Source: Tetracentron sinense (Eukaryota; Streptophyta; Magnoliopsida; Trochodendrales; Trochodendraceae). From it: DNA of 64,000 bases. How positions within the stretch are numbered: the stretch's first letter is position 1; the number at the start of each line of letters is the position of its first letter. The notes beneath the pieces are model-generated. The model was given only the letters and a program-made list of their open reading frames with translations, ran no database searches and was not told the DNA's origin. The stretch covers positions 8,434,501 through 8,498,500 of the forward strand of contig CM026560.1 in the NCBI GenBank assembly GCA_015143295.1. The letters run 5' to 3'. Of the stretch, positions 9,370 through 63,175 are shown piece by piece. A program made the position numbers and the translations under genes.

Positions 9370-10110
9370 TGTTGCGACCTAAAATACCCCCTAGGACATA
9401 GGGATACTCTAGCTCGTGACTGTCGTTCCATACCATCCTGTATGACACATAAGGCATATATACCACCCTATGAGAGTACACAAGGTATAAAATATAGTGG
9501 AAACAAAGCGCATAAAATTTATAATAAAACACTCCTATCACTAGGTTCAAGTCTGAATCAAGAGAACAAAGCAAAATATGAAGTATGAAGTAGACAAGTC
9601 CTACTCTCAACATACACAAAATCCCCTCTCCTATTTCTCCCAGCAATAGTCTAGATAGGACCACCTATCTAGAGCTTCATCATCCTGATGATGATCCATG
9701 GTAGGCTCCGGCTCATAGTACTCCTCCTCTATCCAAGGTTCAGGAGCACACTCATCAAAACCTGCCAAAGATAACAACTTCTGCTGAGCATGGAATACTC
9801 AGCATGTACACAACACTAGCTAATAATGTCGTGCCCCAAAATACCCCCTAGGAGTTAGGATTCTTTGGTGACATGACTTGTACTAAAACTAACCTACAAA
9901 GAGTATACAAGGCTTGCAAAAATAGTGAACAAAAATTTCTTTAATGAATACATGTAATTCCAAGTGTTACATAAACTAACGACTTACTAAAAATACAATA
10001 AGTACAAAAGAGTCCAATGCCTGAATTACCAACTCAAACCTACATGAAAATCCCCAAGGAAAAATGACCCAAAATACATGTCTCTCTCTCTCTCACTCAT
10101 CCTGGCCAGT

Positions 10111-10179
10111 GGCCATATGCCAAGCTTCCTAATATCTAGGTGAGAAGCCTCCGAATATTAGGAAGCTTGGCATATGGCC
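10111..10179. repeat. perfect 25-bp inverted repeat in solo LTR 1
   Basis: Arms 10111-10135 and 10155-10179 (GGCCATATGCCAAGCTTCCT then AATAT, and its exact complement) are separated by 19 nt. The spacer sequence CTAGGTGAGAAGCCT also recurs directly after the right arm. In solo LTR 2 the matching place (about 62865-62895) has a single copy, so the inverted copy arose in this LTR. Confidence 0.9.
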
Positions 10180-10674
10180 TATCTAGGTGAGAAGCCTGCT
10201 CACCCTGAGCTACCTCGATCCAAGGGACAATAGTCCATATACCACATAATGTACCTACCGACATAAAAGTACTGCTGAGCATGGAATACTCAACGAGTAC
10301 AAGCTACTAACTAACAATAGTAATAATGATAAAATAACATACATCATACAGTTCATCATCATATTTCACAAATCAGAGTGCAGAGGTAATAACAAATAAC
10401 AAACAAAATCTTAAGCATCATATTTAAACTCATACTTAGGGTTCATGCTTTGACTAAAACCTCTTTTACCTTCCTTGTGATTCTTGTAATTTACACTTTA
10501 CATTTTATGTTTCTTGTGGGTGCCTTACATGTCTTATGAGGTTCTTTTCGTTGGCTAGTACCCGAACTATGGAATGGATGGACATACTAGGTTCTTATCC
10601 GGTTCTTGTCTCGTGACTATCATGTGTGTTTTCTGGTCGACTTGCTTGTGAATTTCCTTGTTTACCTGGGAACA

Positions 10675-11104
10675 GATGATAATGCCCGTACCTGGTCTTA
10701 GTACATTATCACCCTTCCATTATTTCTTGATTCTTGCTTGGAGACAGATACTAGTACCCTTACCTGGTCTTACTATACTAGTATCCTCTCATACTTGTTG
10801 GAAATATATGTTAATGCCCGTACCTAATCTTAGTACATTAACACCCTTTCATGCATGCCTTGGAAACATATGCTAGTGCCCGTACCTAGTCTTAGTACAC
10901 TAGCATACTTTCATATTATTCTTGTCTTGGAAACAGATACTAGTGCCCGTACCTGGTCTTAGTACACTAGTACCCTTTCATGCTTGTTATTTTACTTGGA
11001 GATAGATGCTAGTACCCATACCTGGTCTTCGTATACCAGTATCCTCTCATACTGGGTTGGGAACAGATGTTAGTGCCCGTACCTGGTCTTAGTACACTAA
11101 CATC
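10675..11104 (-). repeat. tandem hairpin array in solo LTR 1 (7 copies)
   Basis: Seven units of about 60-72 bp each hold two 10-nt arms around a 19-nt loop. On the sense (minus) strand the loop reads TACTAAGACCAGGTACGGG with small changes. First copy arms are 10675-10684 and 10704-10713; last copy arms are 11066-11075 and 11095-11104. Arm sequences differ between copies yet remain complementary within each copy. See findings. Confidence 0.88.
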
Positions 11105-12133
11105 CTTCCATACTTCGTGGTTCTTGCTTGTCATGTTTTCTTTTGAGCCAGGTATGACATATCTTAGGGATATGCCCTACCCTTGACATCCATATCTGTT
11201 TAACTTGTGAGCCAGAGGCTAGCACCCGAACATCCCTGGGCTACCAACCTCCTTGACATTTCATTTTCTTATTCTTGTTGTTTCATCTACTCATATAGGG
11301 AAAACCTCGGTTTATGCATACGTGCTTGGTGTGTGTGGCATTTGTGACGATCATACTATCATAAATAAATCAAGGGACACACATTGCATTTAAATTATCA
11401 GGTTAACATGAACAATAAAGCATGATGTCACATTTCTTGCAATTGCATAGGCATGGGGAATTAAATGAAAACATATAGAGCATTTGTTTTGAAATCACCC
11501 TTTAAGGAAAGCTACACAAGTCATATTTCCAAATCCTCCATTTACACTTGACAATCTCATTTATGCATTTTGTCGAACACCTAATGTGCAACACATTCAT
11601 AGCCACATTATTTCAAGTTCTTTAAGTTCATAAGTTTCATCATACACATGGTGTGCGTGTATTATGCATACAATGCTCATCCACCATTTTCCATCACACA
11701 CATCCCACAATACGGCATCTAATCACCTCCACATCCAACATTCCCCACCTCATTCACAACATAATTATGTTGTATAATTAGGGCATTATTACTTTAAATG
11801 TAGAACCTTGGGTTTACACAAACTCAAACCATTCTCAATTCAAGATAACTAGGTTATTACTAGGGAAGTTAGTAGGGTGTACTAACCTTGATTAAGAAGA
11901 GAAAACCCTTAAAAAAATGCCATGGAGAACGCTGCCCTAGCTTGGGGTGGGACTCCACACGTTCTTGAGGGTGGATTTGAGAAATCCAAGCTTTTGGGAT
12001 GATCTTGGGTTCCGAAACCCTTGATTTCTCTCAAGATGCAACCCTATGAGAAAACCCCTCTTCCTCTCCTCTACTCTCTCTCTCTCAAAATGCTGCCCTA
12101 AGGGTTTATGAAACCCTTAGGCTCAAGCAAGCC

Positions 12134-12429
12134 TTTATAGGCAAGGTGGAAATGCCCAAAAGACGAAAAAGCCCTTAATGAAATTTATGCAAAAACGCGA
12201 AGACCAAGCGATCGGTGGTTATGACCGATCGATCGGTTGCCTACCGAGCGACCGGTGTTCTTGACCGAGCGATTGGTCAAAAACAAGCTCTCTGGAAACT
12301 TTTTCCATACAAAAAAGTTAATCAGTCGATAGCTACCGATCGATTGGTTTTGGACCGATCAATCGCTATTAATGACCGAGCGATTAGTTATGAACCGATC
12401 GATCACTACATTGGACCGAGCGATTGGTG
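12134..12429 (-). promoter_or_regulatory. CGATCG palindrome cluster and TATA box of solo LTR 1
   Basis: On the minus strand, variants of ACCGATCGATCGGT lie between 12429 and 12203, with the spacer holding TATGGAAAAAG and CCAGAGAG. They are followed by TATAAAGG at 12141-12134. The layout matches the other gypsy LTRs. Several palindromes have decayed by single changes. Confidence 0.65.
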
Positions 12430-12856
12430 ATCTGCAGGTCCAAACTGTTTTGGCCATATCTTTTGACTCGTTCGTCGGATTTTGACGATTCAACTTACAT
12501 TGGATTCTTCTTTCGAAAGTGGACATTCCTAACATTCAGAATTTCCAATTTCTCCTTTATTTATTAATTAGACTACTTGAAAGGCCAATTGGCTACGAAA
12601 ATGCTATTAATTAAGTATAGAAAAGTCTGGGGTGCTACAAATAATGTCATAACAAAACATGCTTTCATAATTGCAGTTCATCAAATACAAAGGTAATTCA
12701 TTTCATATACACTTGCAAATACTGTAACAATTTCAAAAATCCCTTTTCAATTACACTGTGCATACATATGGTATATATACTTCTTTTGCTTCTTTTTATA
12801 TGCTTTTTTTTTCTTTCATATCAATTCACTTGCTTTACACATGGCTTTTTCATTTA

Positions 12857-13235
12857 GAATCAGATGACAATGCTTACCTTGCTTGTGGTAAGAGCCCACG
12901 GTCATCCTTCCAATGCATATACTTTTCCTTGGAATCAGAACATAATGCTCGCCCTGGTTGTGGTGAGAGTCCACTATCATCCTTACAATACAATTGCTTT
13001 TACTTTGAACCAGAAGATAATGCTCACCCTGCTTGTGATGAGAGCCCACTATCCTCCTTCCAATACATATGCTTGTTCATGGTTTTACTTGGAATCAGAT
13101 GATAATGCTCACCCTGCTTGTAGTGAGAGTCCACTATCATCCTTCCAATACAAATGTTTTTACTTGGAATCAGAAGATAATGCTCACCCTACTTGTGGTG
13201 AGAGCCCACTATCATCCTTCCAATACAAATACTTT
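12857..13235 (-). repeat. tandem array of about 83-bp units in a gypsy LTR fragment
   Basis: About five units built on GGAATCAGATGATAATGCTC and AGCCCACTATCATCCTTCCA. On the sense (minus) strand GATGATAGTG can pair with CATTATCATC around an inner CTCAC/GGTGAG stem. Long open frames on both strands here are by-products of the repeat and are not genes. Confidence 0.8.
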
Positions 13236-19561: not shown

Positions 19562-19875
19562 GTTTTTGTATAAGTTTGTATATGACTTGTAATTTTCATG
19601 TTGATTTGTAATGCAAGTAGCGTCTAAATTTTGAGGACGAAATTTTTGTAAGGGGGGGAGGATGTAGAGCCCCGGACCCTTTTCACATTTAATGCATGAC
19701 TTTTAAGTTGCCATTTTGCCTTTAAAGAGGTATAATTAATAAACAAGGGAGAAATCAGAAATTCAAAAACGTCAGAAATGTTCATTTTCGAAAGACGGAC
19801 CCAACGCAAGTTGAATCGTCAAAATCCGTCGAGTGAGTCAAAAGATATGGCCAAAACAGTCTGGACCTGCAGGCA

Positions 19876-20059
19876 ACCGATCGCTCTGTCCATGGAGCGA
19901 TCGATCGGTCCAAAACCGATCGCTCGGAGGCTATCGACTGGTCAAGATTTTTCTATGGGGAAATTTTCCAGAGAGTGAAATTTTAACCGATCGCTCGGTT
20001 ATGAAACCGATCGATCGGTAGGCAACCGATCGATCGGTCATTAACACCGATCGCTCGGT
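19876..20059 (+). promoter_or_regulatory. CGATCG palindrome cluster in a gypsy LTR
   Basis: Several ACCGATCGCTCGGT and ACCGATCGATCGGT copies flank a spacer with GGCTATCGACTGG, CTATGGGG and CCAGAGAG. The TATA box expected about 60 bp downstream has decayed to CTTAAAGG. Confidence 0.65.
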
Positions 20060-20917
20060 ACTCGCGTTTTTGCAGAAAATTTAGTAAGGGTGTTTTCATC
20101 TTTTGGGCGTTTCACTCATACCTTAAAGGCTTTGCCCGATCATTTGAGGGTTCATACACAACCCTTAGAGTCTTTTGAGAGATAGAGAGAAAGGAGAAGG
20201 TTTTCCAAAACCTAGGTTTCCATTTTGGAGAGAAATCAAAGGGTTTTGAAACCCTAGATCAACCTCAAGCTCGATTTCTTCAAGATTTCGGTTCAAGCAT
20301 TCGTGGAGCTCGTGTGGGGCACTCTCCTCAAGCTAGGGCAGCAACTCACGTGCGTTTGGTGGAGGATTTCTTCTCCCATTTGTCAAGGTCGGTACTTCTT
20401 ACTACCCTCCTAGTTATAGCTTCTCTTTTCCTTTATTTCTTCTTGTTTTCCTTCACATATATATGTGTTATGAGATTGGTGGTATGAATGGTGAATGGAG
20501 ATGGATGTTGGCGAATGGATGCCGTGTGGATGATGTGATGAACGAATGGGAAAGGGCATTGTACTAATAATGAACATACAAGTGTGATGTGAGCATAACC
20601 CACCTAGAAAAGCATGATCTAGGTTTAAGTGAATAATGAACACACCCCATGTTTGATGAAATGCCAAGGTGAACAAAATAAATGATAAATTAAGGGAACC
20701 TACGCTTGATTGCTCTTTAAATTGTTAGGGTTCATGATAGTGTGTTTCCTACATTTCTTAAATTGCGTAGATTATTACTCAATTAAATTGCTATATGCTA
20801 TGCTTTGTGAATTACCCCAAATTGCTATATTTAATTCCAAATGCAAGTATGCACACGATCTCACGAGCACGCATGAAATGACGTGATTTACCGATGTTTT
20901 AAGTATGGGGCGTAGAG

Positions 20918-20945
20918 GTGGGGCATATCCTAAGATATGTTTCAC
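20918..20945 (+). other. stem-loop with G-U pairs in a gypsy LTR
   Basis: GTGGGGCATATC (20918-20929) faces GATATGTTTCAC (20934-20945). All 12 positions pair on the sense strand if three G-U pairs are allowed. Equivalents sit in the LTRs at 41869-41896 and 59048-59075, and a diverged one near 11148-11190, 36979-37105 and 61940-61975. Confidence 0.65.
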
Positions 20946-21085
20946 TTCGCTTTTGACAAGGGCAAGACAATCATGCATTTCATAGGGAAAGGTCTCCCAT
21001 CCCCTCGCATGACATGCATAGCATCGCATGACACGCATAGCATAGCATGGCATGACACGCATAGCATAGCATCACACATCACGCA

Positions 21086-21287
21086 TGGATGCTAGTTGCG
21101 ACGGGCTATGAACGGCAACTAGGCATTCACATTCCGTATGGATGCTAGTTGCGACGGGCTATGAACGGCAACTAGGCATTCACATTCTGCATGGATGCTA
21201 GTTGCGACGGGCTATGAACGGCAACTAGGCATACCCATCTGCATATAGGGTACTAGTTGTGACGGACTATGAACGGCAACTAGGCAT
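21086..21287 (+). repeat. tandem hairpin array in the 19663-22047 LTR (4 copies)
   Basis: Four units of about 52 bp with CTAGTTGC and GCAACTAG arms (first copy 21092-21099 and 21115-21122) around a loop GACGGGCTATGAACG. The last copy has CTAGTTGT, which still pairs through one G-U. It lies at the same relative place as the arrays in the other gypsy LTRs but is unrelated in sequence. Confidence 0.85.
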
Positions 21288-21597
21288 GTGAACATGTTTA
21301 AATTATGAACAAGCAAGCATGATACTCGCATGACACGCATGACATGACATGACACGCATGATATGACAAGATAAGACAACATAACAAGTTTCAAGCACGG
21401 AAATGGTATTTTCAAGTCAAGTCAAGTGCACGATGTTTTCAAGAGGTTTCATCGGCTTTCTACGAAATACAAGCATGATTATAAATTGTTTTGCTTCCTT
21501 GTATGATATAAATTGTTCATGTTCTATATATGCAACTTGCTTCCTCCTTTATGTATGCTATCTGTATGCTATGACTATTGGTTAGTGCTTAGTACCC

Positions 21598-21618
21598 GCT
21601 GAGTATTCCATGCTCAGC
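21598..21618 (+). other. conserved GCTGAG/CTCAGC hairpin near the gypsy LTR end
   Basis: Six-base arms GCTGAG and CTCAGC enclose the nine bases TATTCCATG. A GTCGGCAGGT motif follows closely. The same pair of motifs is found in nearly every gypsy LTR here (near 4087, 9780, 10270, 36465, 41322, 58472 and 62743). Confidence 0.7.
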
Positions 21619-22096
21619 CGTACTTCTTATGTCGGCAGGTGACGGCGGAGCAGCTGCTCCATTTGATATCTGTGCTCCGAGTCCATGGGTGGAGGAGGAG
21701 TACGTCGAGGAGCCTTTTGAGGAACCTCCAGTAGAGGGTTACCATTAGGTGGTTGTAGATTCTGAGTGGATTAGCTGTGGGTGAGATGAGAGATTATATC
21801 CATGTATTTTGGCGGGTCTGTCCACACTTTCTTCTGGTTACTTTTTGTATAAACTTGGACCATATGTATATACTTAGAGGTTTGTTAGACTTCCGCTGTG
21901 TTTTATAGTTATGTTTCCGCTATAATGTCCTCTATTGTATATGCTCTGTGGGTTTTTGCAGGTTGGTTTGTCAAGCAAGTCATGTAAGTCATGTTTGAGT
22001 CGTCCAAGATTCACTCTAACTCCTAGGGTGGGTCTTGGGTCGCGACATTATGTATTTATATCTAATTGGTATAATGTGATTAATGCAAAATCAAAC

Positions 22097-24548
22097 TTGT
22101 AAACGAGGGGAGGTCATAACACACCTTGAACTTTAGGAAGCTCTAGTTTTGGCACTTTTTATTGGAATTGAGTGATTCTTAAACCATTAGAAAGGTATTG
22201 AAACCCTCTTTGAGGTTCGTGTTTAATGTTTTTCCATATTTTTAGTTTAAGCTAAGTCAAAAGTGGGTTTTCCGATGTTTTGTCTAATGAAATTGCAGAT
22301 CAGTCCACTTGTGGGCCCATTTAGACCATTTAAAACTTAAAATTAGGATTTTTGTAAAACTTAAAAGTTGTTCCTCTTCGAAAGAAGAATCCAACACAAG
22401 TTGAATCATCAAAATCTGATGAGCGAGTCAAACGTTATAGTAAATACTAAAGCGGGTAAAATCTGTTTGAATACGGAAAATAGGGGTGCGATCTATTGCA
22501 AATAAGCTGCGATCAATTGTAAAATAGTTCAATCTATCGCAAATTTCTGCGATCGATCACATTCAGGCGAGTCTTATGATTACCTTTCGGGTCTAGGTGC
22601 GGTAGATCGCACGCGGGCCCAGATTTTTTCAAAAAAGTGTATTTTGGGGTTTTTAACCATTGGGGCTATAAATAGGGACCCTATTTCAAGATTTTTAGGG
22701 TTCTAAACTATTTTTTTTACCTAATTTGGTAAGGGAGAAGAGGAAACCTAGGATTTTTGAGGGAGATATTGCTTGGAGAAGAAGGAGATTGCTAGGAGAT
22801 TGCAAGGAGAGCTTGAAGATCTTCATCAAAGCTTCCTTGAAGCTTCTTGAGAACGATTTGGATCCAATGGAAGGATCCCTAAGGTCGATATACTATCCTA
22901 ATCAACTCTATTATAATGTTTTGTGAATGTTAATATTATAGAAATGATAGAAATAGAAATTAGATGTGTTTTCCCTATTTTTGTATGAAGTAAGCTATTA
23001 TGGATGGAAATATGGATTAATAATGTGGATGAAATGTATGGAGGATGGGAAATATTATAGAGGATGGGATGAATGTGTGGATGTGGATGGTATTTGGATT
23101 GTATAATGGATTATGGTTTGATGAAATGTTGGAAATGTGAAAGGGCAATGGATTCATAATCTACGTACCCAAGGTGTTTGTGAAAATGCATGAGAGGATA
23201 AATACTAATATATCACTATGAAATTGTTGGGAATTGACTATGAATTATGCTAAGAAATATGATAGGATATATATGTACATTATTGCTTGTCAAGTTATGT
23301 TTAATTATTTGCATGGTAATTGATATTTGAGGTAAAAACTTAGAGAAAAATCTCTCAAATCGGGAATTCTCTAACTATATGGTATGGGACAGCATAGTAG
23401 AGTTTCCATGGTGGGATATCGAAATCTAAGCAATTACCTACTCGAATGTTAATTACGACACTTATAGACAACGCACGTGTATGTTAAGATAAGCATCTCA
23501 CAAGTCACACATGTGGACCACAAGCATAAGCATTGCATACGCCTGTCATTCTGAATAAGCTCAATGAGTGATCTGAATAAGTGCATGTTCTGAATAAACT
23601 GCTCAAGACTCATAAGCATACGAATGACATATGTATGACATTCTGAAAAAGCATGGCTTGGGCATGATCCATATCCTCCAAGAGCGGCATGTCAGTTAAT
23701 TAATTGCATAGGCATGGTCAATATCCTCCAAGAGCGGCATGTCACTGTATGATCTGAATAAGTGCATAAGCATAAGCATCTCACAAGCATGTGGTCTCAC
23801 AAGCATAAGCATCTCATAAGTATATTGTCTTCTAAGTCTAAGGTTCACACAAGTACACGAGTCAAGGTGATGATATGATGTATATGAGCACATGTTCTTC
23901 TGCACTCTGATTATATTATTATGATATTGGATATGGTACTAACTAAGTGTTGGTATATTATGTTGTTGGTTGGATTTTATATACACCAAGTACTTTTGTA
24001 CTCAGCCGGACTTTGTCTTGGCAAGTTTAGGTATATTATGTTGTTGGTCGTTACAACTATGACCACGTACCGGCATTAGCATATGTCCCCAAAATAAGTA
24101 AGAAAGATGTTAGTGTACTATGACCAGGTATGAGCACTAACATCTAGTTACAAGTAAGCAAGAGATGATGCAAGTATACTATGACCAGGTATGGGTACTA
24201 GCATCTGTCTCAAAGCAGGAATAACACAAGACAAGAAACACGAGACAAGAAACATAAGATAAACATGAAATGAACAAGACAAGTACGAACTAGACATGAC
24301 AACCTTGATTCACGGAGAATAAGACAAGACAAGATGAAACAATCATGATTTACGCAAGAATGAGATAAAACAAGCACGAAGTACACATGACAAGAAAAGA
24401 CAAATAATTAGGATAAGAACTCAGACTAGACTACCATGATCCGCTCAAGAGCAAGACAAGACAAAATGAGTTCCACCAGTCAAAGATCAAGACAAGAATC
24501 AAGGCTTATAAAAATTATATTATGCTTCCGCACTCTGATTATTATTAT
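22097..24548 (+). repeat. decayed, chimeric gypsy LTR pieces
   Basis: A purine tract (CGAGGGGAGG) at about 22097 precedes an LTR-like start. Then come the gypsy block with CAAGTTGAATCATCAAAATC near 22395, the TGCGATCGATC-type palindromes (22490-22615), a TATA box (22667-22674) and a region of GCATAAGCATCTCACAAG repeats (23500-23850). At about 24030 it switches to a second LTR that carries the covarying hairpins (clear copy with arms 24106-24115 and 24135-24144) and ends near 24548 in CTTCCGCACTCTGATT. It is old and broken, with no coding region. Confidence 0.7.
22490..22674 (+). promoter_or_regulatory. TGCGATCGATC-type palindromes and TATA box in an LTR piece
   Basis: Decayed copies of GCGATCGATCGC-type words (GCGATCTATTGC, GCGATCAATTG, GCGATCGATCAC) lie at 22490-22615. 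GGCTATAAATAGGG follows, with TATAAATA at 22667-22674. Confidence 0.6.
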
Positions 24549-36026: not shown

Positions 36027-38089
36027 TGTCGTGCCCCAAAATACCCCCTAAGAGTTAAGGTATAATTTAGGTGTGACTATACTTAACCTGACAAACCATC
36101 CTGTAATGAACAAGACATAACATAATAAAATGAAATATGATACAAAGTGCGGAAGCTTACAACAATGCGGAAGCGTAACCAACTTTTTCTTTTCTATATA
36201 CCTGACTGGTATTCCAAGTTAGATACAAAACATGACAGTAAAGGTAGACATGCCCACCATCAAAATACAAAATAAAGATCAAGTCTCTCTCTCTCTCCAT
36301 AATACCTTACTAATAATAGTCTAGATATGGCCACACATCTAGATCTCTATCCTCTTATGGCTGCAACGGAATAGGCGGCTCCCTTTCTTCCACATACTCT
36401 TCCTCAACCTAAGGCTCAAGGCTGAAGGTATCTACCGAACCTGCCGACATGAAATGTACGACTGAGTATGGAATACTCAGCGAGTACAAGCTACTAGCTA
36501 ATAATAATAATAAGAAACTACAATAATAATAACTAACACAATTCATAACATCAAATTTAAAGCAATACAATGATCGTGACATGCATAGAACAAATGCAAA
36601 ATCTCCGATAAAACCCTTGTTCATAATCCATACTTATTCTTGAAAATATCTTTTCGTGTTTTTCAAAAACTTAATTGCCGTGTTAAAACTTGTCTTTTCT
36701 TGTTCTTGTTTCGTGGGAATCACACATGTCTTGTCTTGTTCGGAATTACTTGTCATGTCATCCTTGTCTTGACTTGTCTTGTCATGCTTAACTTGTGAGC
36801 CAGATGTTGGTGCCCTTGTAGCGACATGTGAGTCGGATACGTAAGTATCCTTCAAAACATAGAAAAGCAACTTGTGAGTCGGATACGTAAGTATCCTTCA
36901 GCGAAATAGAAAAGGTACACTAACATCCTTGATCGGCCCTCTGTCCGGCTTTATCAACTTGTCTTATTTTCTTGTGAGCCAGGTATGTCATATCCGGGGA
37001 TATGTCCTACCCTTGACCGGCCTGATGTTCGGCTTTATCATACTTGCTTGTTTAGCTGTGAGCCAAGTATGACATATCCGGGGGATATGCCCTACCCTTG
37101 ACCGGCCCGACGTCCGGCTTTATCATGCGTTTCGTGAATCACGTGTCTTATTCTTGTTTGGTTTCTCATATACATATACTTTAGAAAACCTCGGTTAATG
37201 CATGCATGCGTGTGTGTGTAGCAATTTGTAGTAATCATGATGACATGAACAATTCAAGAATGTCGTATAGCATTTCAATTTCTTCCATACTCATGTGAGA
37301 ATTTAGGAACTTATACATGGCATTTGGTCAAAATTATCATTTAGGAAAAACCACACAATTCATGCTTTCATAATCTTCATTAAATTCATTTAATTCTCAT
37401 TCATGCATTTCATCAAACACTTGGTGTGCAACAGTTACATAATCATTTTATTCGTGTTTTTATATTTATACATTTCATCAAACACATTGGGTGCGTTCAT
37501 TATGAGTACATTGTCCTTCCACCTTTTTCATCACACATCATTCGTCACACCACATGGCATCCAATTACCTCAACCATCCACAATTTATTGGTTAATCTTA
37601 TATATTTTTAGGGAACTTAAAAGATTTCCATAAAGAGGGAGTATACAAGATAAATCTATAATTATTCTCAAGAAATCCTAGGTTATTACTAAGTTAACTA
37701 GGAGGGTGTACTAACCTTGAGGATTCACTCCCAATCTTGAAGAAAACCCCCTTGATTGAAATTCCAAGCTTGAGGAAGAACACCACTTAAAAATGGAGGA
37801 GTCCTTGCTTGATGAGGAAGATCAACCTTGACTTGAGCTTCCTTAATCTTTAATTCCAAACCCCTCTTTGGATTCTCCCTAATCTCTCTTCTTCTTTCTC
37901 TCCCTTAGGTTTTGGCTAAACCCAAAAATGCTCAATTGAAGCCCTATTTATAGGCAAAGGGTTAAAAACCCTCAAATCTAGATTCAGCACCCGCGTGCGA
38001 TCGATCACACACTAACTACGATCGATCGCAGCTTGCAGTGCGATCTATCGCACCTAGGGACCACCTATCGCACATTCACCCGAAGATTT
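36027..38089 (-). repeat. gypsy LTR piece (R/U5 side plus palindromes)
   Basis: On the map it starts TGTCGTGCCCCAAAATACCC, the reversed LTR end. It then holds the hairpin GACTGAGTATGG/ACTCAGC near 36465, two stems with ATGTCATATCC/GGATATGTC-type arms (36979-37105), a TATA box (TATAAATA, 37952-37945) and TGCGATCGATC-type palindromes (37985-38085). A copia LTR piece interrupts at 38090, and the LTR start is not seen. Confidence 0.75.
37945..38085 (-). promoter_or_regulatory. GCGATCGATC-type palindromes and TATA box in an LTR piece
   Basis: On the minus strand, GCGATCGATC words at 38085-37995 precede GCCTATAAATAGGG (TATAAATA at 37952-37945). Spacing matches the other LTRs. Confidence 0.6.
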
Positions 38090-38459
38090 TGTTAGACATG
38101 ATGCCCAGAAAATTCATTTAGATTGTTAGATTCTTATTAATTTGATTAATAAAACTTCTTTATCTATTGTGTATTCATTATGGGTAACTGACCATGATCA
38201 TGAGATGATCTATACGATATGATTGGATTATTACAGGCAGATATAATCCTGTAATAAAACTTCTTTATGTGATTGGATTATTATAGGCAGATATAACTTT
38301 CTAGTTCCTTATACCTTCTATAGTCACAGCTATGGATGAAGTTGGGCACTTCACTTATATGGCTGCTACTATGCTAAGATGTTCTTAATAGTTGAGAAGT
38401 AGTTCTATCTCGAACTATTGTGGTGGAGATTACACATCAGCATATGGGTGCTTAAATGT
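38090..38459 (+). repeat. copia LTR-like fragment
   Basis: Opens TGTTAGACATGATGCCCAGA, which resembles plant copia LTR starts, then contains two near-direct copies of GTGATTGGATTATTAYAGGC (around 38225 and 38270). It is flanked on both sides by gypsy LTR pieces of different subtypes. It is a fragment without coding sequence, and family is tentative. Confidence 0.5.
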
Positions 38460-40130
38460 ACACTTCTTTACTTGTGAGCCAGAGGCTAGCACCCGAACCT
38501 CCTTGGGCTGCCAACCTCCTTGACATATGGTTTTCTTGTGAGCCAGAGGCTAGTACCCGAATACCCCTGGGCTACCAACCTCCTTGACATATAGTAGCTT
38601 TTAGTTTTCTTCTAAGCCAGAGACTAGTACCCGAATACCCCTGGGCTACCAACCTCCTTGACATATAGTATTTTCAGTTTTCTTGTGAGCCAGAGGCTAG
38701 TACCCGAATACCCCTGGGCTACCAACCTCCTTGACATGCAATGTTTTCTTGTTGATTTATTAATGCATATGCTCTTGTAAACTCGGTTCATGCATGCATG
38801 CGTGCTCGCGTGCGTGCCAATAATGACAGTCCTGGGAACACGTGTAACAAGAGTGATATCACATCACATTTCAATTCATAGTATAACATGTAAGCATTTA
38901 GGTGATCAACATAGCATTTGGTCAAGTCATCATTTACAAGCACAATTACATAGGGCTTACATCCATTTTCTTTATTAAATTCATGTATTCTTGGTTTAGG
39001 CATGTTATCAAACATCCGGTGTGTAACATTTTTATTAGTTTTTCTTTACCCTTTTTAACGCATATTTTCCATCAATCATCATGGTATGTTCATTATTTAT
39101 AGAATGCCCTCCCACCGTTTTCCATTTCACACATCACAACCACATCCAACGGCATCCAATCGCCACAATCCACATCCCATCGACACATTCGAACTTTTTT
39201 CTTATCTTTGTTTATATTTAGTAAAGGTGATACGTTTTATAAGAAAAGAAAGCATAATATCAAGAGTGAAAACCTAGGTTATTGCTAGGGAAGTTAGTAG
39301 AGTGTACTAACCTTGAATCAAGGCTTGATCTTGGGTGTAAACCTTGATTGAAGCTCCAACTTGGAAGAATGAGGACCCTTGCTTGAAGAAGGCTTGAGTG
39401 GAGGAATAAAGCCTCTTGAAAATACCTTGGAGAACGCCGCCTTAGCTTGGGAACATGCTCCTCACGAGTTAAACCTTGGATTTGAAGAATCCAAGCCTTG
39501 GAACAAATCTTGGTAGCCCAAACTCTTGATTTCTTCTCAAAAGGAAAACCTAACCTTCTCCTATCTCTCTATCTCTCAAAACCCTCTAAGTATAGTGAAT
39601 GAAGCCCTAAAGGCTCGGGCAAGCCTTTATGGGTAAGGGTTTAACACCCAAAAGACAAAAAAGCCCTTACTGAAATTTCTGCAAAACGCGATAGACCGAG
39701 TGATCGGTGGTTATGACCGATCGATCGGTTACCTACCGAGCGATTGGTGTTCTTGACCGAGCGATCGGTCAAAAACATACTCTGGAAAATTTCCCCATAC
39801 AAAAAAGTTAACCAGTCGATAGCCTTCGATCGATCGGTTTTGGACTGATCGATCGCTAATAATGACCGAGTGATCGGTTGTGAACCGATCGATCTCTACA
39901 TTAGACCGAGCAATCGGTGCTCTGCAGGTCCCCACTGTTTTGGCCATATCTTTTGACTCGCTCGTCGGATTTCGACAATTCAACTTGTGTTGCATTCGTC
40001 TTTCGAAAACGAACATTTCTGAATTTTCAGAATTTCTGATTTCTCCCTTATTTATTAATTAGACTACGAGAAAGGCCAATTAGCTATGAAAGTACTATTC
40101 ATTAAGTATAGAAAAGTCTAGGGTGCTACA
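38460..40130 (-). repeat. gypsy LTR piece (U3 side)
   Basis: On the minus strand it opens TGTAGCACCCTAGAC at 40130. It contains the palindrome cluster (39918-39695), the leader region, and four copies of a unit of about 72 bp with GAGCCAGAGGCTAG and GGGCTACCAACCTCCTTGAC (38464-38750). Within each unit GAGGTTGGTA can pair with TACTAGCCTC on the sense strand with two G-U pairs. The LTR's 3' end is missing. Confidence 0.75.
39695..39918 (-). promoter_or_regulatory. CGATCG palindrome cluster in an LTR piece
   Basis: Variants of ACCGATCGATCGGT with the spacer GGCTATCGACTGG, TGTATGGGG and CCAGAG. The TATA box has decayed to CATAAAGG about 70 bp downstream. Confidence 0.6.
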
Positions 40131-40898: not shown

Positions 40899-43278
40899 TT
40901 TCGCAACCCAAAACCCACCCTAGGAGTTAGAGTGAATCTTGGACGACTCATCATGACTTGCTTGATCAAAATAACCTGCAACAGACCTAGTGCATACACA
41001 ATAGAGGACGATAATAGCGGAAACGTAAACTATAAAGCACAACGGAAGTCTAACAAACCTCTATGTATATATATACGTGATCCAAGTTTGATACAAAAGA
41101 AATCGAGACAAAGAAAGTGCGGGCAGGCTCGCCAAAATACATGAATACATCTCTCTCAACTCACCCACAGCTATCCACTCAGAATCTACCATAAGCTAAT
41201 AGTAACCCTCACCCTGAGGTTCCTCCACAGGCTCCTCCACGTAGTCCTCCTCCACCCATGGGCCAGGAGCACAGACATCGAATGGAGCAGCAACTCCCTC
41301 AGAACCTGCTGACATAAACATACGGCTGAGCATAGAATACTCAGCGTGTACCAAATACTAACCAACAGTCATAGCAAACAATAACTATATGGAAAGCAGG
41401 AAGCAGTTCACAGATATAAAGTAGGAACAATTCATATCATCACGCGATAGTAAAGCAGTTGATAATCATGCTTGCATTTCGTAAAAGCCGATAAAAATCC
41501 TTGAAAAACATCGTGCACTTGACTTGACTTAAAACATCATTTTCGTGCTTAAAAAAACTTGCCTTGTCATGTGTCTTGTTTTCTCATGTCGTGTCATGTC
41601 ATGCTTGTATCATGCGTGTCATGCGTGTACCATGCTTGTCATGCGTGCTTGCTTGGGAGTTCAACATGCTCATGTACTTGTGAGATGCGCTTGTGAGATG
41701 CCTTGAGAGGGAAGGGAGGCCCTTCTTTTGTGATATGCCTTGAGAGGGAAGGGAGACCCTTCTTTAATGCAATGAACTTGTGAGTGAGGGGAGACCCCTC
41801 ATGGAAGGGAGGGTAGTGTAAACTCTCTCCTAAGAAGTGTTTGTTCTTGTCCTCTTGTCAAAAGCGAAGTGAAACATATCGTAGGATATATCTCACCTCT
41901 AAGTCTCGTTCTTAAGAATACCGATAAAACATGTCATCATGCCGTGCTCGTGGGACCGTGTACAATTAAGTATGAAAATTGTATCGAAAACATTTCAATT
42001 GATCAATAATTAAATCAAACCAATAAGCAGTTAATCTATCAAGAAGTTCACACACACATTTTCTAAAATAAAGCCTCATCTTCTTCAATGAGTCATTTCA
42101 TCAAACACTTGGTATGCGCATTATGGTTAATACCTAAATCTTGAATTTCTAGCTGGGTTAAGCTCATCACATACATGTACGTTTGTTATTGGTCCAATGC
42201 CCTTCCCATTTCATTCATTTCAACAAACACACGGCATCCAATCGTCCATTCACATCCAACATCCATCCATCCATCCATTCTCCTTATCTTGTTTAGAAAT
42301 TTAGGAAAAATCATCAAATGAAAGAAAAACAAGGAGAATAGGTGAACTAGAAGGTTAGTATAGGGTACCGGCCTTGATTTGGGGTTGAATAACACCTTTG
42401 GTGTGTAGTTCCAACTCGAGGAAGAATCCCTCTTTGAGTTTGAGGAATTCTAGTTGCTTGAGGAAGGTCCTTTGCTTGAAAATCTTCAAGATGAGCTTCC
42501 CTTGATCTCCAATCCAAGCCTTCTTTGAAGGATTTCCCCAATATCCTCTCTTCCCCTTTCTCCCCTTTTCTCTCCTCTAGGTTAGAAATGCCCCAAAATG
42601 AGGATCCCTAACAAGAAAAGGGTTTAAGACCCTCAAATCTGGAATCTGCAACCGCATGCGATCGATCGCACACTTATCTACGATCGATCGCAGGTCCTTG
42701 CGATCGATCGCACCTGGATGCAATCTATCGCACATGAACCCAAACATTTCTGGTCTGATTTCCCCCTGCATGTGATCGATCGCACACTCTTGCGATCGAT
42801 CACAGATCCCTGTGATCTATTGCACCTGGGGATCCATCTATCGCATATGGCCTCGAGAGTTTAGGGCCCATTTCGCCTACATGCGATCGATTGCACCTGA
42901 CTTGCAATCGATCGCACCCTTCAGATTTTGTTGTTTTTCTCTTATTTTTCCACACTTTGGTAATTCGGCCATAACTTTTGACTCGGTTGCCCGATTTTGA
43001 CGATTCAACTTGCGTTGGATTCGTCTTTGGAAGGGGGACATTCCTGGTATTTTAAAATTTCCAATTTCTTCTTTATTTATTGACTAAATTGCCCCTACAT
43101 TCTACTGATCTGCAAATAGGTTTCAGTAACTCGGGTTTTCGATATATTCGACTTAGGAATACTACTTCTTAACACTTAGAGTTGTTCAAAATTTCTCATT
43201 TCATAGAAATGGAAGATTACAAAGGCTTCATGCCTTGGCATGGGTCCCAATACATGGCAAAAGTTCTGGGGCTCTACA
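40899..43278 (-). repeat. 3' LTR of the nested-host gypsy element (2380 bp)
   Basis: On the minus strand it opens TGTAGAGCCCCAGAAC at 43278 and ends ..TTGCGAAA at 40899, where the final bases have decayed from GCGACA. It holds TGCGATCGATCGCA palindromes (42920-42655), hairpin units GAAGGG-TCT-CCCTTC and GAGGGG-TCT-CCCCTC (about 41810-41686), a wobble-paired stem (41896-41869), and the GCTGAG/CTCAGC-type hairpin near 41322. Confidence 0.9.
42655..42920 (-). promoter_or_regulatory. TGCGATCGATCGCA palindrome cluster, 3' LTR
   Basis: About ten words of the form GCGATCGATCGC or decayed versions lie here, in the U3 place that ACCGATCG words occupy in other LTRs. No TATA box follows: the expected spot reads CTTTTCTTGTTAGGG. 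Confidence 0.6.
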
Positions 43279-47686: not shown

Positions 47687-48915
47687 TGAAATTTATCCAG
47701 ATCAATGATCTCTAAGACCTAGAGGGGGGTGAATAGGTCTATCTAATAATTTCTAACCAATTTTAACAATTTTAATTTTTCAACAAATATGTTTAGAAAT
47801 CAATGAACAATTTACTCAGATAACCACACAAATCAAACACAGAAGATTTTTACGTGGAAAACCCTAACGGGAAAAAACCACGGGACCTCGTCCAGCAACA
47901 AACTTCACTATGAAAAGATTTTAAGTACAAGACAAGACCTTACCAAAACAAAAACGACGTTCCTAGGTATAGACTCTTACTCTTGATTTCCACGAACCAG
48001 TAGGTTCGATCTCCGCCGTAGCAGCTTCGGTTCCACACCGACCAAATCTTCTCAAGCTACTTCAAAACCACGATCACACACGATCGATCTCCTTCCACGA
48101 AGGCTCCGGATCAAACACCGGATACACACACAAGGTGTAGGGTTGTGAATCAATTTAGGAAGTTTCAAACCCTAGAGGGATCTCATATAGATCTGAGATC
48201 ACACAATGCAAGATCAAAGGGTTTAGATCTATACTTGCATTCTCTAGGATCAAAGAAAGAGGAGGGTCAACAAAGATCTAATAAGAACAATAGGAAAAAC
48301 CCTAGAGGAGTTTCTCAGACCTCTACTCTTTCAAAATTAAACAAAGATACGAATTAGGTCTCCAAAAAGTTGTTTATATAAGGTTTAAAAAAAGAATCCA
48401 GAAAAATAAAAATTCTTTTTACGGGGACCGATCGAGCGGTGCACATTACCGATCGCTCGGTCCAAAACGGATCGATCGGTGCTCATAACCGATTGAGCGG
48501 TTGAAAATCATCTCTCTGGAAAAATACCCCATACAAATTTTTTGTCCAGTCGATAGCCACCGATCGCTCGGTAGGCCACCGATCGATCGGTCTCAACACC
48601 GAGCGATCGGTTGAGACAGAATTTTTTCCAAACCATATTTCTTTTCATGTTTATTTGATTCAACTAAGATCAAACAACTTTGTTAGGTTTAAAACTATCC
48701 TCCTAGGTATGTTTAGAGTTATCTAAGTCAAATCCAACCTAGGTAGGGGTCACTAAGTCCATTACCTTTCTAGATCCAGAGTAGGAGCTTTTTCTTCACT
48801 TTCTTCAATCTTCTTGATGCTTTGCTCCTTCTCTTCTGACAAGTTTAATAACACACTCGACTCCATGACCTCTCTAATGATCACTGAATTTGCCAACACC
48901 TACTAGGGATTTACA
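47687..48915 (-). repeat. 3' LTR of the SIRE-like copia (1229 bp)
   Basis: On the minus strand it opens TGTAAATCCCTAGTAGG and closes GGATAAATTTCA. It carries the palindrome cluster (48611-48427) and TATA box (48380-48373). Confidence 0.93.
48373..48611 (-). promoter_or_regulatory. CGATCG palindrome cluster and TATA box, copia 3' LTR
   Basis: On the minus strand: ACCGATCG-type words, then the spacer GGCTATCGACTGG, TGTATGGGG, CCAGAGAG, then more ACCGATCG-type words, then CCTTATATAAACAAC (TATA at 48380-48373). Word order, spacer and orientation match the gypsy LTRs. Confidence 0.7.
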
Positions 48916-56068: not shown

Positions 56069-57298
56069 TGAAATTTATCCAGATCAATGATCTCTAAGAC
56101 CTAGAGGGGGGGTGAATAGGTCTATCTAATAATTTCTAACCAATTTTAACAATTTTAATTTTTCAACAATATGTTTAGAAATCAATGAACAATTCACTCA
56201 GATTATCCACACAAATCAAACACAGAAGATTTTTACGTGGAAAACCCTAACGGGAAAAAACCACGGGACCTCGTCCAGCAACAAACTTCACTATGAAAAG
56301 ATTTTAAGTACAAGACAAGACCTTACCAAAACAAAAACGACGTTCCTAGGTATAGACTCTTACTCTTGATTTCCACGAACCAGCAGGTTCGATCTCCGCC
56401 GTAGCAGCTTCGGTTCCACACCGACCAAATCTTCTCAAGCTACTTCAAAACCACGATCACACACGATCGATCTCCTTCCACGAAGGCTTCGGATCAAACA
56501 CCGGACACACACACAAGGTGTAGGGTTGTGAATCAATTTAGGAAGTTTCAAACCCTAGAGGGATCTCATATAGATCTGAGATCACACAATGCAAGATCAA
56601 AGGTTTAGATCTATACTTGCATTCTCTAGGATCAAAGAAAGAGGAGGGATCAACAAAGATCTAATAAGAACAATAGGAAAAACCCTAGAGGAGTTTCTCA
56701 GACCTCTACTCTTTCAAAATTAAACAAAGATACGAATTAGGTCTCCAAAAAGTTGTTTATATAGGGTTTAAAAAAAGAATCCAGAAAAATAAAAATTCTT
56801 TTTACGGGGACCGATCGAGCGGTGCACATTACCGATCGCTCGGTCCAAAACGGATCGATCGGTGCTCATAACCGATCGAGCGGTTGAAAATCATCTCTCT
56901 GGAAAAATACCCCATACAAATTTTTTGTCAAGTCGATAGCCACCGATCGCTCGGTAGGCCACCGATCGATCGGTCTCAACACCGAGCGATCGGTTGAGGC
57001 AGAATTTTTTCCAAACCATATTTCTTTTCATGTTTATTTGATTCAACTAAGATCAAACAAATTTTTTAGGTTTAAAACTATCCTCCTAGGTATGTTTAGA
57101 GTTATCTAAGTCAAATCCAACCTAGGTAGGGGTCACTAAGTCCATTACCTTTCTAGATCCAGAGCAGGAGCTTTTTCTTCACTTTCTTCAATCTTCTTGA
57201 TGCTTTAGCTCTTCTCTTCTGACAAGTTGAACACGACTCGACTCACATGACCTATCTAATGATCACGGAATTTACCAACACCTACTTAGGGATTTACA
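56069..57298 (-). repeat. 5' LTR of the SIRE-like copia (1230 bp)
   Basis: Same ends as its partner at 47687-48915. It carries the palindrome cluster (56994-56810) and TATA box (56763-56756). Confidence 0.93.
56756..56994 (-). promoter_or_regulatory. CGATCG palindrome cluster and TATA box, copia 5' LTR
   Basis: Same layout as in the 3' LTR; TATATAAA lies 47 bp beyond the last palindrome on the sense strand. As the 5' LTR, this copy would drive transcription of the element. Confidence 0.7.
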
Positions 57299-58860: not shown

Positions 58861-58985
58861 GAGATGCCCTTGTGAGATGCCTTGAGAGGGAAGGGAGACC
58901 CTTCTTTTGTGATATGCCTTGAGAGGGAAGGGAGACCCTTCTTTAATGCAATGCACTTGTGAGTGAGGGGAGACCCCTCATGGAA
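58861..58985 (-). repeat. short hairpin units in the 5' LTR (GAAGGG-TCT-CCCTTC)
   Basis: On the minus strand, two units with GAAGGG/CCCTTC arms and one with GAGGGG/CCCCTC arms share the loop TCT. They sit where other gypsy LTRs carry their longer hairpin arrays; the partner LTR has the same set at 41686-41810. Confidence 0.7.
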
Positions 58986-60080: not shown

Positions 60081-60709
60081 TCAGATTTTGTTGTTTTTCT
60101 CCTATTTTTCCACACTTTGGTAATTCGGCCATAACTTTTGATTCGGTTGCCCGATTTTGACGATTCAACTTGCGTTGGATTCGTCTTTCGAAGGGGGACA
60201 TTCCTGGTATTTTAGAATTTTCAATTTCTTCTTTATTTATTAACTAAATTGCCCCTGAAGTCAACTGATCCGCAAATAGGTTTCAGTAACTCGGGTTTTC
60301 GATATATTCGACTTAGGAATACTACTTCTTAACACTTAGAGTTGTTCAAAATTTCTCATTTCATAGAAATGGAAGATTACAAAGGCTTCTTGCCTTGGCA
60401 CGGGTCCCAATACATGGTAAAAGTTCCGAGGCTCTACAAAATTGAACTGTAATACTATATCATTATTGATGGATGTTACGATGTGGAAAAAAGTGTAGCA
60501 CCCCGGACTTTTCCGTACTTAATGAGTAGCACTTTCGTAGCCAATTGGTCTTTCTCGTAGTATAATTAATAAATAAGAGAGAAATTGAAGATTCTGAATT
60601 GCCAAAAATGTTCCTTTTCAACAGACGAATCCAACGCAAGTTGAATCGTTAAAATCCGACGAACGAGTTAAAAGTTATGGCCAAAGTACCGAAACGCGTT
60701 TTGTAGAGA

Positions 60710-60947
60710 ACCGATCGCTCGGTCCAAACTAGCGATCGATCGGTCCACAACCGATCGATCGGTAGCTATCGACTGGTGCACTTTTTTGTATGGAGAAAAA
60801 TTCTAGAGAGGGTGATTTTGACCGATCGACCGGTCAAGAACACCGATCGCTCGGTCTTGACCACCGATCGATCGGTCTATCGTGTTTTACAGAAATTTTA
60901 TTAAGGGCTTTTTTGTCTTTTGGGCATTTTCACCTTGCCTATAAAGG
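60710..60947 (+). promoter_or_regulatory. CGATCG palindrome cluster and TATA box of solo LTR 2
   Basis: ACCGATCGCTCGGT and ACCGATCGATCGGT copies with the spacer GGTAGCTATCGACTGG, TGTATGGAG and CTAGAGAG, then CCTATAAAGGC (TATA at 60940). Confidence 0.7.
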
Positions 60948-62023
60948 CTTGCTCGAGCCTAAGGGTTTCCAAAACCCTTAGGGCAGAAATTTGAGAGAGA
61001 GTGAGAGAAGAAGAAGAGGGTTTTTCTCCTAGGGCATCCTTGGTAAAGAGATCAAGGGTTTGAACATCCAAGGATCTTCACAAAGTTGGTTTCCTCCAAA
61101 GCCAAGCCTCAAACTCGTGGGGAATGTTTTCCAAAGCTAGGGCAGCGTTCTTCAAGGCTTTCCTCAAAAGGGTTTCTTCCCTCCTCAAGCATTCTTCAAG
61201 CAAGGGTCCTCCTTCTTCCAAGTTGGAGCTTCAAATCAAGGGTCTTCACCCAAGATCAAGTCTTGACTCAAGGTGAGTACACCCTACTAACTTCATTAGT
61301 AATAACCTTGATTTCTTCCGCAAATATGATGAGTTTATATGTTGTTTGTCCCTTTTCTTGAGTTATGATGTAATCCATATAATAAATAAGATAAATGGAT
61401 AAAGGTGTGGGAATGTGTGAATGGATGGTGGGTTGTGGCGAATGGATGCCGTGTGGGGTGATGTATGTAGTGTGATGGATAATGGTGGAAGGGCATTTTC
61501 AAACATAATGAACATATCTCTGTGGTGGATGAAAAACATACACTAAGCAACCTAAATAAAAAGGCTATAATTGTGATGCTTACCAAGTGTCTGAGAAAAT
61601 GTTTAAATGAAGATTTGAATAAGTGAACTTGAATTATGAAAGCATGCATTGAGTTATTCTTTCTAAATGTCTACCTTGATCAAATGCACTACATGTCATT
61701 TATATTTCCATATGCTCATATTAAGAATTGAAATGCTACGCTCATGTGATCCTCCTACTCAAGTACGTCACCATGCCTACTACCATTGCTACACACACGC
61801 ACGCATGCTTGCATGAATTGGGTTTTCACGGGTATTGGTACATGATAAATGAAATAAGAAATAAGCATATGTCAAAGAGGTTGGTAGCCCAGGGATGTGC
61901 GGGTGCTAGCCTCTGGCTCACAAGTTAAACTAACATGAATGTCAAGGGTAGGGCATATCCCTAGGATATGTCATACCTGGCTCATAAGAAAACATGACAA
62001 ACAAGAATCACGAAGCATGGAAG

Positions 62024-62454
62024 GATGTTAGTGTACTAAGACCAGGTACGGGCACTAACATCTATTCCCAAACATGTATGAGAGGATGCTGGTATACTAA
62101 GACCAGGTACGGGTACTAGCATCTATCTCCAAGTAAAATAACAAGCATGAAAGGATACTAGTGTACTATGACCAGGTATGGGCACTAGTATCTGTTTCCA
62201 AGACAAGAATAATATGAAAGTATGCTAGTGCACTAAGACCAGGTATGGGCACTAGCATATGTTTCCAATGCAAGTATGAAAGGGTGTTAATGTACTAAGG
62301 CCAAGTACGGGCATTAACACCTGTTTCCAACAAGTATGAGAGGATACTAGTATACTAAGACCAGGTACGGGTACTAGTATATATCTCCAAGCAAGAATCA
62401 AGAAATAATGGAAGGGTGATAATGTACTAAGACCAAGTACGGGCATTATCATCT
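62024..62454 (+). repeat. tandem hairpin array in solo LTR 2 (7 copies)
   Basis: First copy: arms GATGTTAGTG (62024-62033) and CACTAACATC (62053-62062) around the loop TACTAAGACCAGGTACGGG. Last copy: GGTGATAATG (62416-62425) and CATTATCATC (62445-62454). Arms vary between copies but stay complementary within each, with G-U pairs on the sense strand. Confidence 0.9.
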
Positions 62455-63175
62455 GTTCCCAAGCAAACAAGAAAATTCACAAGCAAGTAGACAAGAAAAC
62501 ATGCATGATACTCACGAGACATGTAAGGAACCCACAAGAAGCATAAAATGTAAAGTGTAATTTACAAAAATCACAAGGAAGGTGAAATATGTTTTAGTTA
62601 AAGCATGAACCTAGGTATGAGCTTAAATATGATGTTTAAGATTATACTTGTTATTTGTTATTGCTTCCGCACTCTGATTTTAGTAATGTAATGATGAACT
62701 GTATTATGTATATTAGTTTATTGTTAGCTAGTAGCTTGTACTTGCTGAGTATTCCATACTCAATCGTACTTTCATGTCGGCAGGTACATCATGCGATATA
62801 TGGGCTCTGGGTCTCCTTGGATATAGGCGGCTCATGTAGAGTAGGAGACCGCTCTGATTGTCACCCAGATATTAGGAGCCTTGGCATGTGGCCAATGGTT
62901 GGGATGAGTGAGAGAGAGACATGTATTTTGGGTTCTTATGTCTGGGGGGGTTTGTCTCATTTGGATTGGGACTCAAGTTAAGGAGTTCATGTTCATGTTG
63001 TTAATTTTATTCAATTATTGTAATCAATTGCACTTGGAATATAGTTAAGTTATTAAAGAAAATTTTAGTTCTCTATTTTGCATGCCTTGTATACCCTCTG
63101 CAGGTTAGTTTAAGTACAGGTCACGTCGCCAAAGTATCCTGACCCCTAGGGGGTATTTTGGGGCGCGACAAAAAG

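Follow-up and report, generated by a model that had tools for sequence, protein, structure and literature searches.

The locus and its host element

The window analysed here, 64 kb of Tetracentron sinense contig CM026560.1, contains two complete solo LTRs, each with an array of tandem hairpins. Solo LTR 2 (60494..63170, forward strand) belongs to a Tekay-like chromovirus family and carries the TSD AAAAG at each flank, while solo LTR 1 (9827..12639, reverse strand) has TTATT on both sides; the family name Tekay is presumed from the LTR ends and the PPT. The array of LTR 2, which we call type A, spans 62014..62465 on the forward strand, its seven hairpins with 10-nt arms starting at 62024, 62085, 62154, 62221, 62283, 62343 and 62415. 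The seven units of LTR 1 lie at 10663..11114 on the reverse strand, and a remnant with two clear units and a degraded one is found at 24055..24217 (forward strand). The seven units per LTR reported in the initial annotation were recovered at 62024-62453 (+) and 11104-10675 (-), and so were the 10-nt arms and the 19-nt loop, which are present in 14 of 14 units with 0-2 loop differences from TACTAAGACCAGGTACGGG. The remnant reported at 24106-24144 exists as well, however, it is just one of the two clear units at 24097-24217, with the degraded unit in addition.

A two-LTR copy on contig C1 (sequences L009-L011) has a 3' LTR of 2611 bp (L011:88-2698) and the TSD CGCAT, and its LTRs are 99.3% identical across 2430 compared bases. 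The PPT GGGGGGGAGAA lies ahead of the 3' LTR and the PBS motif TGGTATCAGAGC, which we take to be of the tRNA-Met type, behind the 5' LTR, into which a copia-like element is nested; its own internal region measures about 2.8 kb. The copy L109 is 99.3% identical to it over 2934 bases, and L110 is 97.4% identical to L109. Gag ORFs in L109 (442 aa) and L110 (401 aa) match Retrotrans_gag, Ty3_capsid and zf-CCHC, whereas the shorter ORF of L010 (295 aa) matches only the first two, hence the zinc knuckle is present in two of the three scanned copies. Pol domains were absent from the scanned ORFs of L010, L109 and L110, a scan of ORFs and not of broken pieces outside them, and all other sense-strand ORFs in L109 and L110 are at most 111 aa long. 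The three array carriers whose interior was read look like gag-only elements.

In a related copy, the ORF at positions 27-2609 of the window encodes pol in gypsy order with RVT_1, RNaseH, Integrase_H2C2, SH3_Tf2-1 and Chromo (9e-6); the ORF ends at 2609, ahead of a PPT at 2688 and of an LTR that begins at 2701 and is 79.6% like LTR A over its first 535 bases. Terminal TG..CA, a 5-bp TSD, PBS and PPT, together with the gypsy-order pol and chromodomain of this related copy, place the family among the Ty3/gypsy chromoviruses. Some array places are spaced by about 5.43 kb, sometimes in chains of three, as expected for such short elements. Three array places at steps of about 5.43 kb occur at G000:C4:19698549-19709440 and at C5:25711741-25722670, possibly as LTR-internal-LTR-internal-LTR chains. 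At L012:5095 / L013:4908 a second Tekay-like element has inserted into unit 3 of a type A array with the apparent TSD ATACT, splitting the array 2+5.

Structure and abundance of the hairpin units

The 10-nt stem initially described is present, but it continues to 15 bp: beyond the ten pairs come an almost constant G.U pair, a bulge of one nucleotide and four further pairs. In 227 units selected for at most two loop mismatches, Watson-Crick pairing amounts to 73-98% at pairs 1-10, and pair 11 is G.U in 195 units. The four lower pairs skip one 3' base and read GAAA/TTTC, GAGA/TCTC or GGAA/TTCC in different units. Unaided, RNAalifold returned nearly the same stem plus a U.G closing pair, which is unbroken in 56 units and broken in 8 of 247. 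The few mismatches noted earlier are mostly G.U departures, however, true mismatches do occur, such as G-A at pair 10 of LTR 2 unit 6 and A-C at pair 7 of LTR 1 unit 2.

The exact loop has at least 2143 matches in the genome (1061 forward and 1082 reverse; 1.16 Gb in 1479 contigs), whereas the reversed pattern used as control has 0+0, and hairpins of the type A size class number 550 in the window against 155-186 in five Markov-shuffled windows. Type A hairpins are therefore not chance products. Out of 43 sampled arrays, 17 have seven units; the unit types 1 to 7 follow in order in nine of these 17, and the other eight deviate in at least one unit. The exact loop had no match in viral contigs. 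The 64-kb window gave no gathering-level match to 4227 Rfam families, and the Rfam scan of the LTRs found no ribozyme, its sole entry being mir-341 with 25.8 and 20.6 bits versus a threshold of 90.

In other LTRs of the window the type A model (R1, filters off) gave only weak scores, the best being 13.2 and 14.2 bits, and within 19650-24300 good scores were confined to the known remnants. Since not every LTR of this group within the window has a type A array, the array appears dispensable, unless H0 (see below) or other hairpins substitute for it.

Related hairpins

Weak type A matches at 38472-38740 led to a further hairpin, H0, one of the related hairpin arrays of the window that had been overlooked initially. 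It shares the type A design and lies just upstream of both type A arrays in the window, at 61876..61914 (forward) in LTR 2, with an 11-bp stem containing several G.U pairs and the loop GCCCAGGGATGTGCGGG, and at 11214..11252 (reverse) in LTR 1. G.U is found at pairs 4, 6 and 11 and often at pair 2, and the loop follows GCCCAGGG..CGGG. Another LTR of the group (36399-40130) carries four tandem H0 copies at 38467..38748 on the reverse strand and no convincing type A unit. The H0 pattern GGAGGTTGGTAGCCCAGGG has 12,515 exact genome matches (6200+6315) and is in tandem at many of 100 places among the matches listed. From 169 loop-pattern matches, 80 with at least 8 of 11 pairs were kept and 89 dropped; with G.U counted as paired, this set is biased toward G.U over A.C. 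Its 16 distinct arm combinations, two of which look like chance matches, comprise 114 Watson-Crick, 52 G.U, 4 A.C and 6 other cells, and pair 2 occurs as TA, TG and CG. H0 forms its fold only in sense orientation (z -3.09 versus +0.67 antisense), two stretches of the fold set at 38550-38610 being uninformative, as they sever the hairpin.

Between H0 and the array of LTR 2, a hairpin H1 (GGCATATCC-CTA-GGATATGTC; 61952..61972, forward) is given by fold prediction only. The type C array (12857..13235, reverse) has the lower stem, G.U pair and bulge of type A below a different apical stem-loop, whose 6-bp stem shows one compensatory change (CTTACC/GGTAAG); the type A model finds three of its five window units (E 1.7e-4, 0.027 and 0.12). 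The type B array (21085..21287, forward) occupies the corresponding region of a diverged LTR; its kinship to type A was judged by eye, and it has no match to the type A model. Hairpin-forming tandem repeats of other kinds include an array of 38-bp units GTCTATTACGGCATTTATATAAACGCCGTGAAAGGTGA at 6722-7259 and, in both LTRs of a different family (58870-58976 and 41691-41797), a 37-bp repeat containing a GAAGGG-TCT-CCCTTC hairpin.

Position of the array within the LTR

In LTR 2 the TATA box (TATAAA; 60940..60945, forward) is situated about 1.1 kb upstream of the array. TATA sites with matching surroundings are present in all three compared LTRs, as TATAAA at offsets 447 (LTR 2) and 501 (LTR 1) and as TTATAAG at 461 in the LTR of L011, which has further TATA-like sites at 489 and 1154, both upstream of the array. 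The array occupies LTR offsets of about 1540-1860 compared with about 450-500 for the TATA box, so that it starts about 1.0-1.1 kb past the first TATA and ends before the PBS. Three-way identity among these LTRs peaks at 88% in the blocks 1457-1576, just upstream of the array, and 1681-1799, within it; the remaining blocks are at 13-73%, and two other array blocks reach 16 and 57% because units are missing. This arrangement suggests that the type A array would be part of the leader (R/U5, from TATA box to PBS) of the predicted transcript; we infer both the transcription start and the transcription of the leader.

Outside the hairpin array and upstream of the TATA box, LTR 2 carries a Sirevirus-box-like array of the palindrome ACCGATCGATCGGT (60709..60876, forward). 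Such palindrome arrays were seen in gypsy LTRs of the window at 12202-12425, 60709-60876, 39694-39918 and 19874-20064, and a 70-77% similar counterpart occurs in both LTRs of a Ty1/copia element (48426-48613 and 56809-56996); this block may be either shared or converged between the superfamilies.

Covariation and shared ancestry

Covariation of the arms was evaluated on two samples. The first comprised 247 units from the window and from exact-loop arrays (100 of 2143 places), after removal of 4 out of 251 units that had five loop mismatches, including one at window position 47284 (an unrelated place), and without the fragments L001-L008, which overlap L016-L018. The second comprised 60 loci obtained via the exact type 6 hairpin (from 100 of 193 places, close neighbours thinned); its 61 type 6 units, picked for a perfect hairpin, are included in the combined tree, single-pair and favourable-root sets. 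The two samples share lineages, hence the second confirms the allele spectrum and does not provide independent mutations.

In the tree null the substitutions were re-dealt on the unit tree. For the 226 distinct units among the 247, Watson-Crick pairing over the 15 pairs amounted to 80.2% versus 62.9% in the null (maximum 72.0) and compensated cells to 11.9% versus 1.5% (maximum 4.5), values reached in 0 of 300 simulations. This run was midpoint-rooted, and in the enlarged set such a root leaves 4 of 15 root pairs mis-paired, which flatters pairing. With a root favouring the null (15/15 root pairs paired) and 427 distinct of 598 units, pairing was 81.0 versus 70.0% and compensation 12.2 versus 1.6%, again with 0/300. 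The observed compensation was reached in that run by 0/300 simulations at pairs 6, 13/14 and 14/15, by 1/300 at pair 3, 2/300 at pair 7, 5/300 at pair 1 and 11/300 at pairs 9 and 10; there was no signal at pairs 2, 4, 5, 8 and 15/16 and no double change at pairs 11 and 12/13. Taken alone, the four lower pairs gave weak pairing percentages (reached by 17 and 32 of 300 simulations) and compensated cells at 0/300 in the 226-unit set.

A smaller alignment pointed in the same direction. It held 56 units drawn at random, eight per type and within 14 differences of the type, a selection that flatters pairing; 96.2% of 1008 cells were paired versus 87.3 in shuffles and 111 cells were doubly changed versus 34.3 (each 0/500), and slid-partner controls paired at 31-48%. 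Two of the five measures did not exceed the shuffles: the number of pairs with a double change (9/18 versus 7.7 shuffled; 65/500 shuffles), which is unremarkable alone, and further pair types (288/500). In an R-scape-like single-pair test, consisting of our own G-test with average-product correction and tree null, no pair attained E<0.05, the best being u6-d6 with E 0.27 (226 units) and 0.17 (427 units), because the deep signal derives from about seven unit types. Six of the top ten in the 427-unit ranking are stem pairs, and linked non-stem columns rank alongside them; significance of covariation is for this reason not claimed for individual pairs. The covariation proposed initially was hence upheld against the phylogenetic null for the structure as a whole, where compensatory change exceeds what phylogeny produces, but not for single pairs.

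Constraint on the loop

Substitutions on internal versus terminal branches numbered 37:148 in the loop compared with 80:114 in the spacer (p 8e-6) and 114:222 in the stem (p 8e-4), and in the enlarged set 62:265 in the loop against 124:156 in the spacer (p 2e-11), whereas stem and spacer did not differ (p 0.11). The loop is nearly constant and its changes seldom propagate, although part of this constancy is ascertainment, because the arrays were located by the exact loop or an exact hairpin. For a kissing loop via ACCAGGT, an interrupted palindrome, the states listed for 247 units include no compensated pair. Within the loop, a candidate inner TAC/GTA helix is paired in 94% of cells (56 units) with no double change and a mean ensemble probability of 0.19-0.33, and a candidate apical CC/GG helix has a probability of 0.16, with double changes in just 3 and 4 of 598 units.

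Strand preference

A G.U pair on the sense strand is an A.C mismatch on the opposite strand. Unit-type-specific states outside pair 11 were counted as G.U or A.C according to their spread among loci, the boundary at three loci being our choice, and in the first sample 225 of 247 units were used, those more than 14 differences from the nearest type being excluded. The G.U:A.C counts were 16:16 for states at one locus, 9:9 at two and 20:6 at three or more (p 0.028 versus the rarer 25:25); shared versus strictly private states gave p 0.056. In the 60 loci of the second sample, with type 6 and far units excluded, they were 16:19, 7:12 and 20:3 (Fisher p 0.0004 versus the rarer 23:31). Pooling both samples weakened the contrast, to 31:17 versus 28:35 (p 0.054) for three or more loci and 30:15 versus 25:31 (p 0.044) without type 6, perhaps because recurrent changes now attain three loci. 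Counted as tree events, G.U:A.C was 17:6 for deep, 25:18 for shallow and 94:82 for terminal branches, a contrast of deep versus terminal that is only suggestive (p 0.075). In a subfamily (L009, L011, L043, L045) unit 7 has two adjacent G.U pairs. A-to-I editing as a source of the G.U excess was considered and rejected, with A>G 18 versus T>C 14 on deep stem branches.

The folding energy is lower for the sense strand in 226 of 247 units, and a 621-nt array stretch folds with z -5.25 in sense versus -1.79 in antisense direction, none of the 20 shuffles for each strand being better. Sense-strand preference of the type A array is accordingly supported but not proved. The initial annotation regarded compensatory change with an almost constant loop as the mark of a selected structure, probably at the RNA level, and its objection of inverted-repeat copying indifferent to the RNA strand is answered by the sense preference. 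Structure-level covariation, the shared exceptions and the folds agree with a selected RNA structure, but the event-based strand contrast is just suggestive.

A probably selected leader RNA and its possible role

We favour the reading that the array forms sense-strand stem-loops in a transcribed leader, which are kept by selection on the RNA and serve as a multivalent Gag docking platform in packaging or dimerisation; we give this complete reading a probability of roughly 0.4. Its first part, a selected sense-RNA structure, is very probable. A Gag or packaging role, once such a structure is granted, falls a little short of an even chance. The leader RNA of this Ty3/gypsy chromovirus family would display about seven 15-bp stems with a near-constant loop, the stem being free to vary as long as pairing holds and the loop hardly allowed to change. 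The hairpins might then offer multivalent docking to a protein, above all to the element's own zinc-knuckle Gag, by which genomic RNA would be selected and/or dimerised for packaging. Gag recognition is suggested by the near-constant loop, the paired but variable stem, the several copies, the sense strand and the leader position in an element that seems to retain hardly anything beyond LTRs and a zinc-knuckle Gag; any other function of the leader RNA, however, would leave the same marks.

The main rival, which we consider unlikely, is an action of the array in translation of a long leader, where a short ORF plus hairpin would clear, stall or shunt ribosomes, as short ORFs with hairpins do in the shunting leaders of plant pararetroviruses. 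An ATG is found at the stem foot in the same columns of 212 out of 247 type A units, in 152 of these 212 exactly four codons ahead of a stop within the 5' arm; propagated changes are rarer in these ATG columns than elsewhere in the spacer (7:25 versus 75:99, p 0.030), and the leaders of three LTRs hold 72, 83 and 86 ATGs versus 51.6, 55.8 and 54.7 expected. Type C units, on the other hand, keep the stem with no ATG at the matching place, 21 of the 212 ATG units have 12 or more codons and four run without a stop through the 61 bases read, and the stop sits within the stem, unlike in the shunt design of pararetroviruses. Translation would also give no reason for the loop being under the strongest constraint. 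That constraint, taken together with arms varying while pairing is kept, also bears on a role as source or decoy for small RNAs, in which the host silencing machinery would process or match the hairpins: a silencing target would not be expected to covary around a fixed loop, and stems of 15 bp are short for plant Dicer-like enzymes. The palindromic LTR regions of maize Sireviruses do attract small RNAs (PMC10760457), nevertheless we regard this role as very improbable here.

The G.U pairs weigh on the two explanations that dispense with a leader RNA. Inverted-repeat copying, by template switching or hairpin correction during replication, could keep arms complementary with no selection; quasipalindrome correction is a known copying process, and an inverted duplication around CTAGGTGAGAAGCCTCCGA at 10111-10179, near the 3' end of solo LTR 1, looks like one template-switch event. 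Correction should, however, remove the G.U at pair 11 (195/227 units) and several G.U pairs of H0, and only 10 of the 346 changes that start from a Watson-Crick pair lead to another such pair on the same branch, so that we find this origin highly improbable. A DNA-level element of tandem dyad-symmetric sites bound by transcription factors of the host, the role suggested for Sirevirus boxes, also seems rather improbable. LTR regulatory regions with tandem palindromic boxes are known (PMC2829016, PMC10760457), and the same LTRs have a clear palindromic array upstream of the TATA box. The type A array, in contrast, lies downstream of it, its arms vary but still pair, and most of the widely shared exceptions are G.U on one strand, which would be invisible to a duplex site.

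Beyond the favoured reading of a selected leader RNA that might bind Gag, it is conceivable, if doubtful, that the tandem loop-constant, stem-free hairpin arrays (A, H0, C and possibly B) represent a new cis-acting RNA of plant chromovirus leaders for multivalent Gag recognition, with apical loops that diverge between element families and so provide a packaging code for self and non-self. In our judgement little is known of the RNA signals in the leaders of plant Ty3/gypsy elements, including those for packaging, and the thousands of natural variants in one genome (at least 2143 type A loops and 12,515 H0) offer a ready series for defining such a signal. If the reading is true, tandem repeats of LTRs can be selected RNA structure.

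Comparison with known systems

The initial annotation knew of no described LTR element of this kind, which holds only in part. Among open-licence papers, represented by titles and the beginnings of abstracts and hence weak evidence of novelty, no description of a gypsy LTR hairpin array with this design was found; however, tandem palindromic motifs able to form hairpins are reported from Sirevirus LTRs, at positions upstream of TATA (Bousios et al. 2010, PMC2829016; PMC10760457, citing Bousios et al. 2016), while a constant loop with covarying arms is not described in the portions of those papers available. Both systems are tandem, dyad-symmetric, hairpin-capable motifs of plant LTRs in many copies. 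Sirevirus boxes belong to Ty1/copia elements, lie upstream of the TATA box and have a conserved symmetric core CGG-CCG, whereas type A belongs to Ty3/gypsy, lies downstream of the TATA box and combines arms that vary and co-vary with a near-constant 19-nt loop and sense-strand G.U pairs. The host Gag is likewise of the gypsy type (Retrotrans_gag, Ty3_capsid) and not of Ty1/copia, and the palindrome array at LTR offsets of about 210-400 is a closer analogue of the Sirevirus boxes than type A.

With regard to packaging, BARE shows that a plant retroelement is able to sort RNA for this purpose; the paper speaks of conserved dimerisation and packaging signals and calls the packaged RNA of other LTR retrotransposons fairly little known (PMC3735527). 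Retrozymes, LTR elements with hammerhead ribozymes, likewise place structured RNA in plant LTRs (PMC4918200), but the window has no gathering-level Rfam match and the LTR scan no ribozyme. The array carriers also resemble TR-GAG, gag-only non-autonomous elements, in their LTRs, PBS, PPT, Gag ORF, interior of about 2.8 kb and the absence of pol from the scanned ORFs. In retroviruses, leader stem-loops such as psi and DIS expose conserved loops that are recognised by Gag, and packaging and dimerisation signals usually consist of few unlike hairpins. The array studied here sits between a TATA box and the PBS, in what is predicted to be the 5' leader, and its stem-loops would differ from psi and DIS in forming about seven similar tandem copies together with H0 and H1, with Gag as the putative partner.
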